This document shows positions 23,352 to 29,706 of a DNA stretch of 64,000 nucleotides, piece by piece; the first letter of the stretch is position 1; each line of letters begins with the position of its first letter. The DNA comes from Acidobacteriota bacterium. Its GTDB lineage: Bacteria > Acidobacteriota > Terriglobia > Bryobacterales > Bryobacteraceae. The stretch is taken from NCBI GenBank assembly GCA_025352795.1, contig JANXSF010000007.1, forward strand, positions 1 through 64,000, written 5' to 3'. The notes beneath the pieces were generated by a model, which worked only from the letters and a program-made list of their open reading frames with translations, had not been told where the DNA came from and searched no databases. The position numbers and the translations under genes are program-made.

Positions 23352-24644
23352 ATGGCGTCTGAGGCGTTTTCCTTTCGCGACTACAAGCGCATTCTGCGTG
23401 AGAACCGCAATTTTCGTCTGTTGTGGTTCGCCCAAATTGTTAGCGAACTTGGTGACTGGTTTTACTCGCTGGCAGTCTACAGCATGCTGCTGCAGTTCAC
23501 TGGCAAGGCCGAATCCATTGCACTTGCCTTCATTCTACAAGTACTGCCACAAGTGCTCACATCCCCTGCGGCAGGAGTTTTAAACGACCGCATCAGCCGT
23601 AAGAAAATCATGATCTTCGCCGATTGGGCACGGGCCGTGATTGTATTGCTGATGCTTGTGGTCCGCACGCCTGGCATGATCTGGTTCATTTACGTTTTGT
23701 TGTTTTTTGAAACGGTGATGTGGGCTCTATTTGAACCAGCCCACCACGCCGTCATTCCCAACATCACAAATGAGCGGGACATGACGCCCGCCAACACGCT
23801 GTCTTCACTGACTTGGTCGTTCAACTTCATGATCGGGTTTTCATTGGGCGGGCTATTCACCGCAGCCTTCGGACGCGAAGCTGTTTTCGTTATGAATGCA
23901 GTCTCATTCGTCGCATCAGCAATGCTTATTCGGCGCATGGATTTTGTGGAACCTCATATGGCAGCGCATCCCAATTGGACCTGGCGTTCGCTATTTGATT
24001 TCACTCCCATCGCCGAAGGGGTGCGCTACGTGCGGCAAGACGGAAGATTGTTTGTCACCATGCTTTGCAAAGCTGGCCTGGGAATTTTAGGATCCAACTG
24101 GGTGCTGCTGCCCATTTTTGGCGCGCGTGTGTACCCATTGATCACAACAACTTTCGGTGCGGAGAAAGCAGGCATATTGGGGCAAAGTGTTCTGATGGGT
24201 GCCCGCGGAATTGGCGCCATACTTGGTCCCATTGGGGTATCCAGATTCGCAGGGAATTCTGAAGCGCGAATGCGACAATGTGTGTTGATCGGCATGCTGC
24301 TGGGGTGTGCTGGCTATGTGGGCTTAGGGCTTAGCAACAGCATGTGGACTGCATGCCTGGGTGTGTTGGTGGCCCATGCCGGGCTGGCCATGATCTGGGT
24401 CTATTCCACCACGCTACTGCAACTGTGGACCGATGATCGCTTTCGTGGACGAGTGTTCTCCGCTGAATTCAGCTTTGGGGTGATGACCATGTCCGCATCC
24501 AGCGCCATTGCCGGATATCTTGTAGATCAAGGAGTTTCGGTGCAACGAATTGCGGTGGTCAATGGGTTGGCGATGTTGGCCCCGGCTCTACTATGGTGGG
24601 TGGCACAACGATTGTGGAAACCACAAACCCCTCGTCCATCGTAG
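23352..24644 (+). CDS. MFS transporter (MFS_3/enterobactin-exporter type)
   Basis: This is a 430-residue inner-membrane carrier with about 12 hydrophobic segments. The start has NFRLLWFAQIVSELGDWFYSLAVY, and the loop after segment 2 has DRISRKKIMIFADWARA, both typical of the MFS_3 group. A second-half loop, LWTDDRFRGRVFSAEF, is the repeat-half equivalent. Substrates in this group are usually drugs or siderophores, but none can be assigned. The ATG follows trpS by 6 bases. The 3' end overlaps a kinase gene on the opposite strand by 86 bases. Confidence 0.9.
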   Translation: MASEAFSFRDYKRILRENRNFRLLWFAQIVSELGDWFYSLAVYSMLLQFTGKAESIALAFILQVLPQVLTSPAAGVLNDRISRKKIMIFADWARAVIVLLMLVVRTPGMIWFIYVLLFFETVMWALFEPAHHAVIPNITNERDMTPANTLSSLTWSFNFMIGFSLGGLFTAAFGREAVFVMNAVSFVASAMLIRRMDFVEPHMAAHPNWTWRSLFDFTPIAEGVRYVRQDGRLFVTMLCKAGLGILGSNWVLLPIFGARVYPLITTTFGAEKAGILGQSVLMGARGIGAILGPIGVSRFAGNSEARMRQCVLIGMLLGCAGYVGLGLSNSMWTACLGVLVAHAGLAMIWVYSTTLLQLWTDDRFRGRVFSAEFSFGVMTMSASSAIAGYLVDQGVSVQRIAVVNGLAMLAPALLWWVAQRLWKPQTPRPS

Positions 24645-25056
24645 GGGGCTGAAGCTTGGTAGCCATATGACGAATGACCTCTTCCGGCACTACTCGATTG
24701 CGCATTTGATTGCGCTCCACACAGACCTCAATCGGCGTATTGAAGAAGAGTGCTTCCGCCTGACAACCATATAGCTCCGCTATCTTGATATACGCTCGGC
24801 GATCTTTTCGAGTCAGGTTAGTAGCGTCAATATAAGTTTCTTGCGCCCCTAACTGAATGCGCATGGTGAGCAATTTTCTCAGCAAGCCGAACACTACACT
24901 GTGGATGGATTGGTCGGTTGCATCATCGCGTAGAAGTCGTCGCATTTCGTCTGAAGAAAGTGTCGGGTAATGATGTTCCTTCAGCCAAGTGGACTTACCT
25001 GATCCGGGCAATCCAATTACGACAATCACACGTTGCATCATAGCCGTTGGTTGCAT
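24559..25056 (-). CDS. P-loop kinase, polynucleotide kinase-like
   Basis: This is a 165-residue AAA_33/Zeta-like P-loop enzyme that probably phosphorylates a nucleic acid end or a small molecule. Walker A is GLPGSGKST near residues 15-23. YIDATNLTRKDRRAYIKIA near 95 and ALFFNTPIEVCVERNQMR match the family's lid and base-binding segments. The first ATGs are at 25056 and 25041, and the start is not decided by a ribosome-binding site. Its C-terminus (SPTH) overlaps the 3' end of the MFS gene on the other strand over 86 bases. It ends the minus-strand cluster that begins with the ECF sigma gene but may be separate from it. Confidence 0.85.
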   Translation of the reverse strand: MQPTAMMQRVIVVIGLPGSGKSTWLKEHHYPTLSSDEMRRLLRDDATDQSIHSVVFGLLRKLLTMRIQLGAQETYIDATNLTRKDRRAYIKIAELYGCQAEALFFNTPIEVCVERNQMRNRVVPEEVIRHMATKLQPPTMDEGFVVSTIVVPPTIVEPGPTSPTH

Positions 25057-25062
25057 GGATTC

Positions 25063-27519
25063 TTATTGCACCGTGTTGATATAAAGTTGCCACGGACCCC
25101 AATAATAGGGCTTGTGGTAGACCTTCGATTGGATCATATTGCACTTTGCCGCGCGGAGTGACTGGCTCGCCGTATGACCTTCAAGGCCAGCATAGAAATC
25201 GGCGAACAACTCCGCTGCCGCGCCGTCGTGCACATCCCAAAGCCCAGCTATCACTTGCTTGGCACCTGCTTGCAGAAACGCGCGTGATAAGCCCACCAAG
25301 CCTTCGCCGGGGAATGTTTTGGCACCTGCGCCGCTGCAAGCCGAAAGCGTTACCAGATCGGCATGGAGAGGCCTTCGCGCAAGATCCCTGGCAGTTACCC
25401 TGTATCCCCGAGGGTCTTCGCGAAGTATCAGCGCTGAATCCAATGGGCTGGCGGAATTGGCAATGGCGTGCATCGCAAAATGGAGGTGTGAAAAGTTTTC
25501 AACTGGCTGGGCGAGGTAGCGGGTGCGACTGGCTTCCTCTCCAGTCAATTTGGTCACCCGATCTTTTGGAAAAAAGCTGGCCACACTTTTAATTTCTGCG
25601 GCCGCGTTTGCTAAATCTTTGAAGCCTTCAGGGTAGTGATCTGGATCCCCGACCACCAACAAAGATCGTGGGGTTTTGCGCAATTGGCGTTTGCTCATTT
25701 GCATAGTGCGAAGGGAAGGGGAAACGGCCACCTCATGATCTTCAATCAAATAACGATGGTCTGCGAATGAGGGCAGGAGTTCAAAGTTGATGGAATGAAG
25801 GAAACTATCGGCGACCACTAATAAGGGCACTTGCTCCTTCAATTGTTTGCGTGCAGGCTCAAGCAATAGCTGAAAAAGTTTGGCTCTTGCACCTGATGAA
25901 TTATCGTCCGGTTCGCGCATGGCGGTGACCACAAATTCGCGATATTCTTCCACCAGCTTACGAATCTGTTCTTCAGGAGGAAGCGAATAAACTTCCATGC
26001 CTGAAGGCTCAATCACCCAAAGGTGAGATGCAGCAGCGCCAAGAGAATAATACAGAATTGTGCGCTTTGTGGAACTGGCGATGTTCATGGCATTTGGTGC
26101 GACACTTGCCGTGGTTAAGCTGTCTCCCAGTGCTCTGGCGCGGCTTGAATCGGCCACGGTCAATGCTTCTTCTTTTTTACCTTGTGCTATGAGAAAGTCA
26201 ATATACTTTTGAAACAAGGGCTTGAGTTTTGCAAAGTAGGAAATTCTGTACTCATCTCCCTGCATGGTAGTCCGTTGCCTTTCTGCTAATTCTTCGGCTT
26301 GTTTAAAGGCGATGGCAACTTTGCCGGGCTCGCCAGAATCAATGAATAAAGTAGCCAATCTAAAGGCGGTTTCCAGAATCAGTTCACTATCGTTGCCTGC
26401 CAGGCTAATCGCTTGCCGATAAAGTGTTTCGGCTTGGCCGAACTGCTTTCGACCTTGGGCAATGCGTGCAGCGTTGAAGCGATGGTAGCGAATGCGATCT
26501 GGGTTCCCCAATCCCTTTGCCTGATTGTTGAATAGTTCAGCCGTTCCATAATCCTTCAGATCAATATAGGCAAGCGAAATATTATTGAGCCATTGCGCTT
26601 TCCTGTCGCTTTCCGTTGTGAGTTCCAGAGCCTTTTTGAAATTTGCAATGGCACCTTTGTAATCGCCAACTTCTTCCCGAACAATCCCCAAGTTGCCTTG
26701 CCAATATTGTTGTTCGGCAATGTTGCCCAGCTTTTCAGCGCCCAGGGTGGCTTGTTGAAGTAGGTCTTTGGCTTTTTCAAAATCGCCAAGACTTTGGTAG
26801 CACACCCCCAAATTCCCAAGTGCCTTGACTCGATTGCCTGCCAGTTGCAACTGTTCAAATTTTGCCAATGCCTGTTGTAGCCAATAAATTGCTTCATTCA
26901 AATGATTGTTTCTTAGAAGCACAATGCCCATGTTGCCCAGACATTGTGCCAACAAATAATCATCCCCTAACGTCACCGCCGTAGCGATGGCATGACGAAG
27001 GGTCACCTCCGCTTCATCGGTCTGATTCAGCGTAATTTGCAGTGCGCTCTTGCGGATTTCAATGAGCGTTTCTAATTCTGAAGACTTTAACGCTTTGGCG
27101 TCGGTAAGGGCTTGATCCAGATATTTGGTGGCCGAAGGAATATCAAATTGTCTGAGGCGGGCTAATCCCAAATGCATCAATCGACGTGTTCTGATCAAGG
27201 CATTCTGTGGCTCTGGTGTGTGGTTCAAAACAACTTCGGCTTCAGTGGCCATTCTTTTGTTTAACAAGATGTCCGCTTTGAGTAACCGAAATTTCCATTC
27301 CTGGTCTGATCCTGAAACCAGGGAATGGCCGTTCAATTGTTGATCCACCAAACGCGATGCCTCTTCCAGTTTTTCCCGCTGAAAGAGGCTGTCGGCTTTT
27401 TCGTAAATCGCGGACGGATTGGACTGACAACTGGACAGATGACTGAAGACGAAAGCTATGGCCAGGGGTTGCCGCCACCCGCTGCTCCGCCAAAAGTGCC
27501 TTCCCCTTCCCCTGGACAT
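25063..27519 (-). CDS. TPR-CHAT protease-like lipoprotein
   Basis: This 818-residue protein has a signal with the lipobox LSSC near residues 28-31, so it is probably an envelope lipoprotein. Tetratricopeptide repeats span about 40-430, for example the helical pairs AKALGNLGVCYQSLGDF and YKGAIANFKKAL. A C-terminal caspase-like CHAT domain (about 510-818) carries a candidate catalytic His684 (HFAMHA) and Cys728 (LSACSGAG). CHAT proteins are cysteine peptidases or dead relatives; here both residues are kept. A strong GAGGTG (27528-27533) lies inside the preceding gene. It is the last gene of a sigma/anti-sigma operon, which suggests regulated proteolysis, not shown. Confidence 0.88.
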   Translation of the reverse strand: MSRGRGRHFWRSSGWRQPLAIAFVFSHLSSCQSNPSAIYEKADSLFQREKLEEASRLVDQQLNGHSLVSGSDQEWKFRLLKADILLNKRMATEAEVVLNHTPEPQNALIRTRRLMHLGLARLRQFDIPSATKYLDQALTDAKALKSSELETLIEIRKSALQITLNQTDEAEVTLRHAIATAVTLGDDYLLAQCLGNMGIVLLRNNHLNEAIYWLQQALAKFEQLQLAGNRVKALGNLGVCYQSLGDFEKAKDLLQQATLGAEKLGNIAEQQYWQGNLGIVREEVGDYKGAIANFKKALELTTESDRKAQWLNNISLAYIDLKDYGTAELFNNQAKGLGNPDRIRYHRFNAARIAQGRKQFGQAETLYRQAISLAGNDSELILETAFRLATLFIDSGEPGKVAIAFKQAEELAERQRTTMQGDEYRISYFAKLKPLFQKYIDFLIAQGKKEEALTVADSSRARALGDSLTTASVAPNAMNIASSTKRTILYYSLGAAASHLWVIEPSGMEVYSLPPEEQIRKLVEEYREFVVTAMREPDDNSSGARAKLFQLLLEPARKQLKEQVPLLVVADSFLHSINFELLPSFADHRYLIEDHEVAVSPSLRTMQMSKRQLRKTPRSLLVVGDPDHYPEGFKDLANAAAEIKSVASFFPKDRVTKLTGEEASRTRYLAQPVENFSHLHFAMHAIANSASPLDSALILREDPRGYRVTARDLARRPLHADLVTLSACSGAGAKTFPGEGLVGLSRAFLQAGAKQVIAGLWDVHDGAAAELFADFYAGLEGHTASQSLRAAKCNMIQSKVYHKPYYWGPWQLYINTVQ

Positions 27520-28184
27520 CCCAGTGTCACCTCAAGCATGCTTACTCGTCGAACATTGTATGAGCAAAACAAGCGCGCCAATCGAACAGATCCGAATTGA
27601 GGAATTTCCAGGACATGGTCCTTGAACCCAAAATCTGCATCATTGCTAACCATGCTGTAGCTGGTGAGCTGGCCTTTGTTTTGCCCTAAGCTTAACGATG
27701 ATAGCGCTTCCATTCCCCTATCCGTGATGAGGCTTGAAAAAGTCGGATATTGGTTAAATAAGCTGGTGGCCAACTGAACATGGATCGGCTTGCCGTCAAT
27801 GCGCAGATTTTCAAAGGAACAGCCCAGTGGAGTTATCTGTACTTCAGAAGGATTTTCCTGATTCGGATACATGGCTGAAACGCGCGAAATAATTCGGTCG
27901 CACGTGATCATGTCCATTACATTGATCTTTTCAATGCAGACTGATGCCATTGAAAAATAGGCTTTGTCGGCTTCGCTGTAGTTTCCGATGGCCTGGCTGC
28001 GAGCCGATCCAAAAGAAAAGAAATTCTTGAAGCGATAGTTTTCCACATGCGCTTGTGAATATCCACCATGAATAGAAAGAGCGCAGGTGGCTTGCCCTTC
28101 CAGCACTTCATGAAATGGAAGGGTAATGTTTCCGCCGAAAGCAACGGCGTCTGCCTGGTAAAGAAAGGTCTTCTTATCAGCCAT
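27456..28184 (-). CDS. Unknown protein of the sigma/CHAT operon
   Basis: This 242-residue product has no signal peptide and no recognised domain. It has runs such as ALSIHGGYSQAHVENYRF, INVMDMITCDRIISRVSA and CSFENLRIDGKPI. The last two weakly resemble secreted choice-of-anchor P proteins, from memory and unverified. A Gly-rich tail (GEGEGTFGGAAGGG) is encoded in the 64 bases that overlap the CHAT gene, which therefore depends on translation through here. It lies 20 bases after the anti-sigma gene. It could be a substrate, adaptor or inhibitor of the CHAT protein; this is a guess from position. Confidence 0.75.
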   Translation of the reverse strand: MADKKTFLYQADAVAFGGNITLPFHEVLEGQATCALSIHGGYSQAHVENYRFKNFFSFGSARSQAIGNYSEADKAYFSMASVCIEKINVMDMITCDRIISRVSAMYPNQENPSEVQITPLGCSFENLRIDGKPIHVQLATSLFNQYPTFSSLITDRGMEALSSLSLGQNKGQLTSYSMVSNDADFGFKDHVLEIPQFGSVRLARLFCSYNVRRVSMLEVTLGCPGEGEGTFGGAAGGGNPWP

Positions 28185-28204
28185 TCGAGTAGTCCTTAGT
28201 GATT

Positions 28205-28903
28205 TTATTTTAGTTGTAGTTGAAACGAATACTCAGCCAACGGTTTTCCATTGGGGCTGCCCGGTTCCTGCACGCTGAGTGAGTACTTACCGCTGTCAAG
28301 ATCTCGGGTGGGCAGGTGGACATACATTGGTCGTCCAGGGAGTGGTCTTGGTACTTCAAACTTTACTTTCTCTCCAGTTTGTTTCCGCAAACTACAAATA
28401 AAAACTTCAGCGGGACTTTCTGGATTGAAGTCGAAATAGAGGGAGATAAATTTCTTGTTGCGGGAAAACGGGATTGTGTCTTCGTCCCCTCTGGTATCAC
28501 CTTTAAGCGGAAAATATCCACCCGATTGATAGTTGCCCGGTGAATCTAATTCGCGCTGTAAGGCCGGGTTCACCACCAGCGCTTCATGTGTGTAAAGGCC
28601 AAGAAATACCAGAGAAGCAAGCACTGGGGCGGCAATGCGGAACGATTGTAGGAAACGTTGAAACCGTGTCCCGGCAGGTACCGGAAGCGCTATCGGTGCA
28701 CCACCAAACTGATTCGCAACTGGGAGCTGCTCGCGTAGGACAACGCGCGCATTTGTCAGAAACATGGCAGTCTGATTGAGTTGCTTAGAACACTCGGAAC
28801 ATTCAAAACAATGGACTTCAAATAATTCCATTTGTTGGGGGGTGAGCAGCCCAAGGACGTAGCTTTCAATGGCTCCGGAACTTTCTACCTGCTGATGATC
28901 CAT
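28205..28903 (-). CDS. Zinc-binding anti-sigma factor
   Basis: This is a 232-residue membrane protein. Residues 31-38 carry the ZAS motif H-x3-C-x2-C (HCFECSEC), the zinc site of redox-sensitive anti-sigma factors. One transmembrane helix is at about 90-107 (RIAAPVLASLVFLGLY). A periplasmic part of about 120 residues follows, with LPTRDLDSGKYSLSVQEPGS near the end. It directly follows the ECF sigma gene, its presumed partner, which it would hold at the membrane until a signal arrives. Confidence 0.88.
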   Translation of the reverse strand: MDHQQVESSGAIESYVLGLLTPQQMELFEVHCFECSECSKQLNQTAMFLTNARVVLREQLPVANQFGGAPIALPVPAGTRFQRFLQSFRIAAPVLASLVFLGLYTHEALVVNPALQRELDSPGNYQSGGYFPLKGDTRGDEDTIPFSRNKKFISLYFDFNPESPAEVFICSLRKQTGEKVKFEVPRPLPGRPMYVHLPTRDLDSGKYSLSVQEPGSPNGKPLAEYSFQLQLK

Positions 28904-28952
28904 TTCAACGTTTCCAATATGTAAGTGTCTTTCGCAGTCCTAACGTTTCATA

Positions 28953-29534
28953 TCAAAATGAAAGAAACGTAAAGAAATTAGTGGCCTTCATACTGGCACC
29001 ATTCATTGCAGTGCGAAACTTTTGTTTGGCGCGGTGTAAAAGTACTCTAAGATACTCATGTTCAACGTGAAATGTTCGGCATACATCGGTCCTATCTGCT
29101 TCCTCAAGAAAAACCATAGTCAAAATCTGCCGGTCTTTGTCTGGCAATTGCGATAGCACCAGAGCCACAGCTTTTTTCCTTTCCTCGGTTACCATACCAC
29201 TTTCAATGTCTAACCTTCTATCCATAATGTCGGAGTCTGCATCCTGCAGTAATGGATGCCGGGCATCCCCTCGTAAGAATTCCAAAGTGACATTGTTGCT
29301 CACTGAAAGTACATAAGCCCCTAAGCTTTCCGGTCTATCCAGTTGCCCGCCAGAACGGATAAAGCGGACCACCCGCAGAAACGTTTCCTGGCAAACATCG
29401 GCCATCAATTCCTTGGATCGCAACCGACGACGCAGACGGTACCAGATCACCGTGGAAAAGTGAGTCACAAAATGTTGCTCCGTATCAGGATCACGTTCCC
29501 GAAGACGGTTCAAATAGTTGGCGTCAAACACCAC
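28953..29534 (-). CDS. ECF-type RNA polymerase sigma factor
   Basis: This is a 193-residue sigma-70 family protein of the extracytoplasmic group. Region 2 has LMADVCQETFLRVVRF (core binding and -10 melting). Region 4 has LSQLPDKDRQILTMVFLEE and a helix-turn-helix VCRTFHVEHEYLRVLLHRAKQKF for -35 recognition. It starts at a GTG. It is the first gene of a four-gene minus-strand operon (sigma, anti-sigma, unknown, TPR-CHAT) and is divergent from the holin-like gene across 172 bases. It likely drives its own operon. Confidence 0.9.
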   Translation of the reverse strand: MVFDANYLNRLRERDPDTEQHFVTHFSTVIWYRLRRRLRSKELMADVCQETFLRVVRFIRSGGQLDRPESLGAYVLSVSNNVTLEFLRGDARHPLLQDADSDIMDRRLDIESGMVTEERKKAVALVLSQLPDKDRQILTMVFLEEADRTDVCRTFHVEHEYLRVLLHRAKQKFRTAMNGASMKATNFFTFLSF

Positions 29535-29706
29535 GGCTGCTCGGCTGCCCCCTTTGCAGATACGTTATAGTTTATTGCAAACCACAGTACCACATCCAAA
29601 TTCATGCGTCGCAAGTCTCAAAAGATTAACTTGCGTCAATGAATTGATGATACATATTACCACCCGCACTTGAAGATCAGCGCGATTTGAGCTACATTGC
29701 AACGAC

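Follow-up and report, generated by a model that had tools for sequence, protein, structure and literature searches.

A conserved acidobacterial operon of an ECF sigma factor, a predicted transmembrane anti-sigma factor and a TPR-CHAT protease, and its possible function as a protease-gated sigma switch

The DNA analyzed here is a 64,000-nucleotide stretch from an Acidobacteriota bacterium of the Bryobacteraceae (assembly GCA_025352795.1, contig JANXSF010000007.1, positions 1 to 64,000), referred to as the window. Its minus strand carries four successive open reading frames (ORFs), which encode an extracytoplasmic function (ECF) sigma factor (28953-29534, GTG start, 193 residues), an anti-sigma factor of 232 residues (28205-28903), a protein of 242 residues termed p242 (27456-28184) and an 818-residue protease with tetratricopeptide repeats (TPRs) and a CHAT domain (25063-27519). 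The end of p242 and the start of the protease gene overlap, with the CHAT ORF beginning 64 bases before p242 stops, and in many of the loci compared p242 starts at most 25 bases after the anti-sigma stop. An earlier note on this DNA had proposed that the four genes form one minus-strand operon; the ORFs were found where it placed them, and order and strand are kept at homologous loci. Operons with the order ECF sigma, zinc-binding anti-sigma (ZAS), p242 and TPR-CHAT are designated type A, those with the order CHAT-sigma-anti type B.

The sigma factor matched the Pfam model Sigma70_r2 (29.1 bits, cut-off 24) and was above the cut-off of TIGR02937 (56.4 bits), whereas two region-4 models remained short of theirs (22.2 and 20.4 bits versus 25.7 and 24.1). 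For the anti-sigma factor a sub-threshold LIM match was the only hit in Pfam, with nothing above cut-off, and its family profile matched PDB chain 3hug_B (E 2.8e-4), which we take to be the anti-sigma factor RslA. The zinc-binding motif H31-x3-C35-x2-C38 described in the earlier note is present with all three residues (HxxxCxxC, 28790-28813) and was found in 92 of 95 homologous ORFs. As judged from the sequences, with region 2 and TIGR02937 over cut-off and an HxxxCxxC protein encoded next to it, the gene pair fits an ECF sigma factor with its ZAS anti-sigma. Hydropathy exceeded the threshold for a transmembrane segment in 73 of the 95 homologous ORFs, and in the window's protein the predicted segment covers about residues 86-105 (28589-28648). 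The AlphaFold2 (AF2) model of the anti-sigma (m31fbc01aebc1, mean pLDDT 84.6) shows helices in residues 3-59, a weak linker, a helix from 80 to 120 and eight strands from residue 129 onwards. Its outer domain resembles an immunoglobulin (Ig)-like sandwich, with a best Z of 8.1 over 90-92 residues (root-mean-square deviation 2.8-2.9), which is a middling value. The anti-sigma is predicted to span the membrane, with a cytosolic ZAS domain, one transmembrane helix and an extracytoplasmic Ig-like domain in the periplasm.

The protease scored 176.2 bits with the CHAT model PF12770 (cut-off 24; residues 547-810, 25090-25881) and 99.9 bits with TPR_12, its TPR region extending over about residues 90-383 (26371-27252) in the Pfam models. 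The predicted catalytic residues His684 (25468-25470) and Cys728 (25336-25338) are intact, and this dyad was aligned in 92 of 97 CHAT ORFs, an alignment that contains some genes twice; the remaining five are ORFs cut by contig ends or a divergent pair on contig C137 of the window's genome. Score and dyad place the protein, at the level of sequence, in the CHAT peptidase family. A lipobox (LSSC with Cys31, 27427-27438) is also present, in agreement with the earlier note, which had described the protein as a lipoprotein. Among 94 distinct p242-linked CHATs an automatic rule detected a lipobox after a hydrophobic run in 56, a hydrophobic segment alone in 32 and neither in six. The window's CHAT was assigned to these six by the threshold although LSSC comes after a hydrophobic run; by eye, five of the six, including the window's, show a Cys after a hydrophobic run, and the sixth (L133) represents a wrong start region. 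A stricter rule applied to a different subset of type A resulted in 43 with lipobox, four with a hydrophobic segment and seven with neither among 54. Since the N-terminus carries a lipobox or is otherwise hydrophobic, the TPR-CHAT protein should reside outside the inner membrane, in the same compartment as the modeled Ig-like domain of the anti-sigma.

The p242 of the window was not recognized by any Pfam family above cut-off, and among 40 members of its family no Pfam family was matched by more than one. Four members were also searched against PHROGs, where three had no match and the fourth a weak one (E 0.014). However, 38 of the 40 members matched NF040603 (choice-of-anchor P) at E values up to 0.1, the best being 3.4e-10, and the 27-bit cut-off of this model was passed by three of seven relatives scanned singly. 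The window's p242 gave no match to it. The earlier description of p242 as an unrecognized protein therefore stands for the window's member and not for the family, which appears from these profile matches to be a remote relative of choice-of-anchor P, presumably a grouping of surface proteins with varied anchors. From the 40-member family a confident all-beta AF2 model was obtained (pLDDT 89.1), in which the conserved, glycine-rich C-terminal tail (27459-27521, family pattern LG.P.EG....G...GNG...P in the alignments) is modeled as an ordered strand and not as a free tail. In Foldseek searches of the PDB and a viral library no match reached E 1e-3, and Z did not exceed 4.8 in VIA-align 2; as no clear structural match was obtained, we do not assign the fold a name. 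Compared with the PDB, the p242 profile matched HisF best, at no better than E 0.47. A signal peptide was not seen in p242: the N-terminal hydropathy had a median of 1.06, and only two of 54 members barely exceeded the threshold of 1.8. CHATs activate bacterial gasdermins, and a gasdermin-like pore was therefore considered for p242; the idea was dropped because RCD-1 reached no more than Z 3.2 and was surrounded by unrelated proteins. At two loci repeat-like remnants were observed, one with a p242-like start and an anti-sigma-like end between anti-sigma and p242 (L115, 9706-9990) and one with three p242 ORF pieces (L203, 7897-9499).

A single-sequence search detected relatives of p242 in 54 genomes out of 150 from the order, representing 23 of 60 genera and including the window's genome, and a profile search detected them in 17 genomes of a phylum-wide sample of 297. 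On named GTDB contigs 44 loci encode a p242 relative, 43 of them titled acidobacterial and one, with a complete operon, in a metagenome-assembled genome labeled Myxococcota (L116), a label that may reflect transfer or mis-binning. Around p242 relatives the order sigma, anti-sigma, p242, CHAT repeats on one strand. The four-gene arrangement is not due to chance, because homologous loci retain order and strand. The two sets of loci compared in this way (53, L053-L105, and 44, L106-L149) were found via p242, so that p242 is present by construction, and some genomes occur in both.

A second comparison started from the protease. A profile of orthologous CHAT domains (A6) matched 131 of the 150 genomes of the order, with 63 places scoring above 300 bits and the next at 272; 15 of the places above 300 bits, which had no p242 on the contig by single-sequence search, were thereby added to this CHAT-first set. 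The score is an imperfect separator of type A, as a CHAT at 264 bits (G128) has p242. Thirteen of the 63 type A CHAT ORFs had less than 2.5 kb of upstream sequence and were excluded before counting. Upstream of the remaining 50, the anti-sigma was found in 50, p242 in 47, sigma in 46 and all three in 43, absence of a gene meaning no match of its hidden Markov model at the chosen E-value. In a further set, obtained by a search of related contigs, 34 of 37 CHATs were kept, and sigma and p242 were present in 34 and the anti-sigma in 33 (none was detected in L142). Three of the 50 operons encode sigma and anti-sigma with no detectable p242 (L308, L312, L315), and four encode anti-sigma, p242 and CHAT with no detectable sigma (L075, L083, L102, L314); visual inspection of the latter four revealed nothing resembling a sigma ORF ahead of the anti-sigma. 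The steadiest pair of the operon is thus formed by the anti-sigma and the CHAT protease. A tree built from 101 CHAT domains placed all 54 that have p242 upstream (the window's and 53 others) on one side of a single branch (SH-aLRT support 100), compared to an average of 33.8 changes needed when the p242 labels were shuffled; these 54 were largely found via p242, and the p242-less orthologues L308, L312 and L315 are not part of the tree.

The window's genome encodes six CHATs. One of them lies on contig C7 (L009) directly before its own sigma and anti-sigma genes, and on contig C137 two long divergent CHAT ORFs (1206 and 1010 residues) point away from each other (L010). In 21 relatives 61 CHAT places were found, 40 of which were retrieved (places already included, weak or fragmentary were omitted) and 38 of which form rows in the tree. 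A directly adjacent ECF sigma gene on the same strand was present in 20 of these 38 and missing in 18; among the 20, three have p242, 13 the order CHAT-sigma and four the order sigma-CHAT. With 50 sigma region-4 matches in the 6-Mb genome of the window, chance adjacency of a CHAT and a sigma gene is estimated at a few per cent. The type B operon is common in the same family, and p242 was not detected in it (L009; L213, L214, L216-L219, L222, L224; L290, L291, L293-L295, L297, L298). The earlier expectation that sigma genes accompany TPR-CHAT homologues thus met with a mixed result: sigma lies beside 46 of 50 orthologues, but paralogues with no sigma next to them are common. For the orthologues the data support the proposed unit of ECF sigma, zinc anti-sigma and intact TPR-CHAT lipoprotein as conserved.

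These data are best accommodated, though tentatively and with less than even confidence, by the idea of an envelope-sensing ECF sigma switch in which the CHAT protein would be the site-1-type protease and the anti-sigma its substrate. In the cytosol the ZAS domain of the anti-sigma would hold the sigma factor, while one helix would cross the inner membrane and the Ig-like domain would lie outside. The TPR-CHAT protein, exported as a lipoprotein or with a signal or anchor segment, would share the compartment of this domain and may sense a stimulus with its TPRs. It would then cut the outer domain of the anti-sigma, most likely after a conserved loop Arg (Arg-Gly in the window's protein), and this site-1 cut would allow a site-2 protease to complete the breakdown of the anti-sigma and free the sigma factor. 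In such a switch p242 would probably be an input or output and not an obligatory substrate. We infer cleavage, cut position, binding, stimulus and regulon, and export, topology and loop position are predictions. A homologue of M50 site-2 proteases is encoded in the genome (PF02163, E 1.8e-64), such proteases being near universal (14 of 14 controls). The protease-gated sigma switch of the earlier note remains the leading reading, based on the conserved sigma/anti-sigma/CHAT unit and the intact dyad, with the anti-sigma taking the place of p242 as the better substrate candidate because it is found beside all 50 orthologous CHATs.

The candidate cleavage site, Arg138-Gly139 of the anti-sigma (28487-28492), follows the first periplasmic strand and is located in a predicted membrane-proximal loop (residues 133-141) of the AF2 model. 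Among 88 distinct anti-sigma homologues, a set that includes the type B protein of L009, Arg is found at column 138 in 78 and Gly at 139 in 69, and if a misalignment of up to five residues is allowed, Arg followed by Gly, Ala, Ser or Asp is found in 84. Apart from glycines, no residue of the periplasmic part is more conserved than Arg138, which, together with two glycines, is one of three residues conserved to at least 90% in the domain alignment. In most type B anti-sigmas a strand-loop Arg is located 15-19 residues past the membrane segment; 21 of them inspected by eye show RG in 15, R-A or R-S in five and R-Q in one (L290), with an uncertain alignment register in four (L187, L188, L299, L304). 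Arg at the P1 position is listed for the clan CD peptidases clostripain, metacaspase, paracaspase, gingipain R and separase in PMC4357240. An RG pair within 60 residues after the transmembrane segment was found in 14 of 18 anti-sigmas from CHAT loci, compared to 5 of 20 encoded at other ECF loci (Fisher p 0.003). The shared predicted compartment, the intact protease, the conserved loop Arg, the frequent cleavage after Arg by clan CD enzymes and the presence of an M50 protease together favor the site-1 role.

Several observations weigh against this role. In the comparison of RG pairs the 20 controls are unmatched, most of them having a different outer domain, and the control loci span only about 1.5 kb on either side. 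Homologues of the anti-sigma without a CHAT in the retrieved stretch retain the Arg (R-A in L289 and L300, R-S in L292), so that it may be structural. Moreover, glycines of the domain are equally or more conserved (G205 in 85 and G177 in 77 of 88). Twenty-two of the 95 anti-sigma homologues stayed below the hydropathy threshold for a transmembrane segment. For the type B CHATs export is less clear, as the stricter rule detected a hydrophobic segment in 13 of 21 and none above threshold in eight. If the lipoprotein CHAT were sorted to the outer membrane, it would need to span the periplasm to reach its substrate. Type A CHATs have an acidic residue after LW in 45 of 52 non-gap rows, as does separase, but 20 of 21 type B CHATs lack it, and the anti-sigmas of type B carry the same Arg. 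The comparison with separase was consequently abandoned as proof of Arg specificity of the CHATs.

The most serious rival to the site-1 role places the CHAT at the output side. Envelope stress would then be sensed by the sigma switch via other proteases, and p242 and CHAT would be co-transcribed effectors, with the CHAT degrading other envelope or surface proteins. Sigma targets are commonly co-transcribed with their regulator, and with 18 of 38 CHATs in these genomes lacking an adjacent sigma, CHATs must have other work as well. On the other hand, the anti-sigma is more constant beside the CHAT than the sigma factor itself (50 versus 46 of 50), and the second order CHAT-sigma-anti exists without p242. 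The region upstream of the operon also bears on this question. Across the family a -10-like motif, GGTATACT, was identified upstream of the sigma gene, with a log-likelihood of 156.6 compared to 14.9-15.5 in three base-permuted control sets that were run with fewer starts and iterations. It scored above 4 in 62 of 76 upstream regions, and in 36 of these it starts 45-55 nucleotides before the start of the sigma model. In the window the element would be expected at about 29540-29620. The 30-column motif resembles coding similarity at gene starts. The conserved GGTATACT-like element suggests housekeeping transcription of the operon. An ECF-like pair of boxes was not returned by the unsupervised motif search before the operon, only this housekeeping-like -10 element, and a shared ECF promoter was not visible by eye in the gaps between anti-sigma and p242. 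Activation of the operon by its own sigma factor is hence not supported. Overall, we regard the CHAT as an output as less likely than the CHAT as a site-1 protease.

It was further considered whether p242 is a substrate or an adaptor of the CHAT and a second sigma inhibitor like Csx30 of type III-E CRISPR systems. In 47 of 50 operons p242 separates the anti-sigma and CHAT genes, and this position, its conserved C-terminal tail and the placement of its CHATs on one side of a branch would fit such a function. However, p242 showed no signal peptide while the CHAT is predicted to be exported, it was undetected in three type A operons and in the type B operons, its tail is predicted to be an ordered strand, and the best PDB match of its profile was the insignificant one to HisF. 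The substrate or adaptor role that the earlier note had proposed for p242 is therefore not supported as an obligatory one, and this alternative is improbable. Slightly less probable still is that p242 is exported non-classically and serves as a ligand activating the TPR-CHAT, the operon reporting its secretion or assembly in a manner similar to DegS and the tails of outer-membrane proteins. The relation to choice-of-anchor P and the conserved NG...P tail are in line with this, but no export signal was seen, and a Pfam scan identified no tail-binding domain in the CHAT. A cell-death or defence module with an incidental sigma factor is very improbable: PMC10907252 lists CHAT as one of the effector domains in bacterial defence, and caspase and ECF sigma neighborhoods are noted for EACC2 systems, but PADLOC gave three TPR-protein models and no CHAT effector model, p242 relatives were absent from plasmids and from viral contigs (a search covering close relatives), and the CHAT is predicted to be exported.

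The site-1 role can be widened to a general proposal, in which CHATs are exported site-1 proteases for transmembrane anti-sigmas of acidobacteria and cut after the Arg of the Ig-like domain in two operon families, p242 having been added in one of them as a reporter or target. This is possible but more doubtful than the site-1 role as such. If true, proteolysis of the caspase type would govern transcription across a bacterial membrane independently of CRISPR in a widespread and little-studied phylum, and the first step of anti-sigma proteolysis would gain a class of cysteine proteases.

Apart from the four genes, a kinase ORF is encoded downstream of the CHAT (24559-25056). As phmmer found no counterpart at the other loci compared, it is not counted as part of the cassette. 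A protein of about 740 residues with NPNYFG and a duplicated T.YE.L.C.G stretch is encoded near the operon at several loci, with some ORFs partial (L119, L120, L122, L126, L131, L140 on the opposite strand, L141, L143, L145, L060, L341 and L345). Three members had no Pfam or NCBIfam match. Strong matches to it were found in six of 299 genomes of the class, beside the operon in three (G320, G455, G565), apart from it in two and limited by the contig in one, and its single occurrence in the 21 relatives adjoins the operon. At one locus (L130, 7954-8799) a second sigma gene, matched by the same profile, lies downstream and is oriented towards the operon; a further CHAT is located beyond it.

Among the literature matches listed, which cover few subscription journals, a description of an acidobacterial sigma/anti-sigma/p242/CHAT operon was not found. 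Several known systems are comparable in part. Neighborhoods of EACC2-caspases contain a caspase-like domain, an ECF sigma and a TPR protein, according to PMC8195603, and are set apart by their description with other domains (EACC2, DUF1822). The choice-of-anchor P proteins are matched by nearly the whole p242 family, but not by the window's p242, which also shows no signal peptide. For ECF54, proteolytic control without an anti-sigma was proposed from CHAT, subtilase and carboxypeptidase genes in its context, as stated in a review (PMC8999054). The likeness thus lies in CHAT genes in a conserved ECF sigma context, whereas here an anti-sigma is found beside all 50 orthologues.

Regulated intramembrane proteolysis of anti-sigmas (RseA with DegS, RsiW) is similar in its transmembrane anti-sigma with an outer domain, in a first cut from the outside, as proposed here, and in an M50 protease, which the genome also encodes. 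In contrast, the proposed site-1 enzyme, whose cleavage of the anti-sigma we infer, would be a caspase-like cysteine protease. RseA and RsiW are also named in PMC10028731, which deals with the type III-E system. There, Csx30 is an inhibitor of CASP-sigma and is itself cleaved by Csx29 within a loop, between residues 427 and 429. In both systems a TPR-CHAT protein is linked to an ECF sigma factor as well as to an inhibitor of sigma, and in III-E the cleavage takes place in a loop of the inhibitor. In the window no direct repeat of at least 20 bases with copies within 120 bases was detected as a sign of a CRISPR array, and cas genes including Cas7-11 were not searched for. The window's CHAT scored 23.6 bits with the Csx29 model NF041237 (cut-off 300), and the p242 profile, which was not compared directly with Csx30, had no PDB match below E 0.47. 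The earlier note had called the likeness an analogy with no homology shown, and this holds: the systems agree in logic, while the protease is here predicted to be exported and the inhibitor to be a transmembrane ZAS anti-sigma. If the site-1 role is correct, this would suggest that the III-E pairing of a TPR-CHAT protease with a sigma inhibitor has exported parallels.

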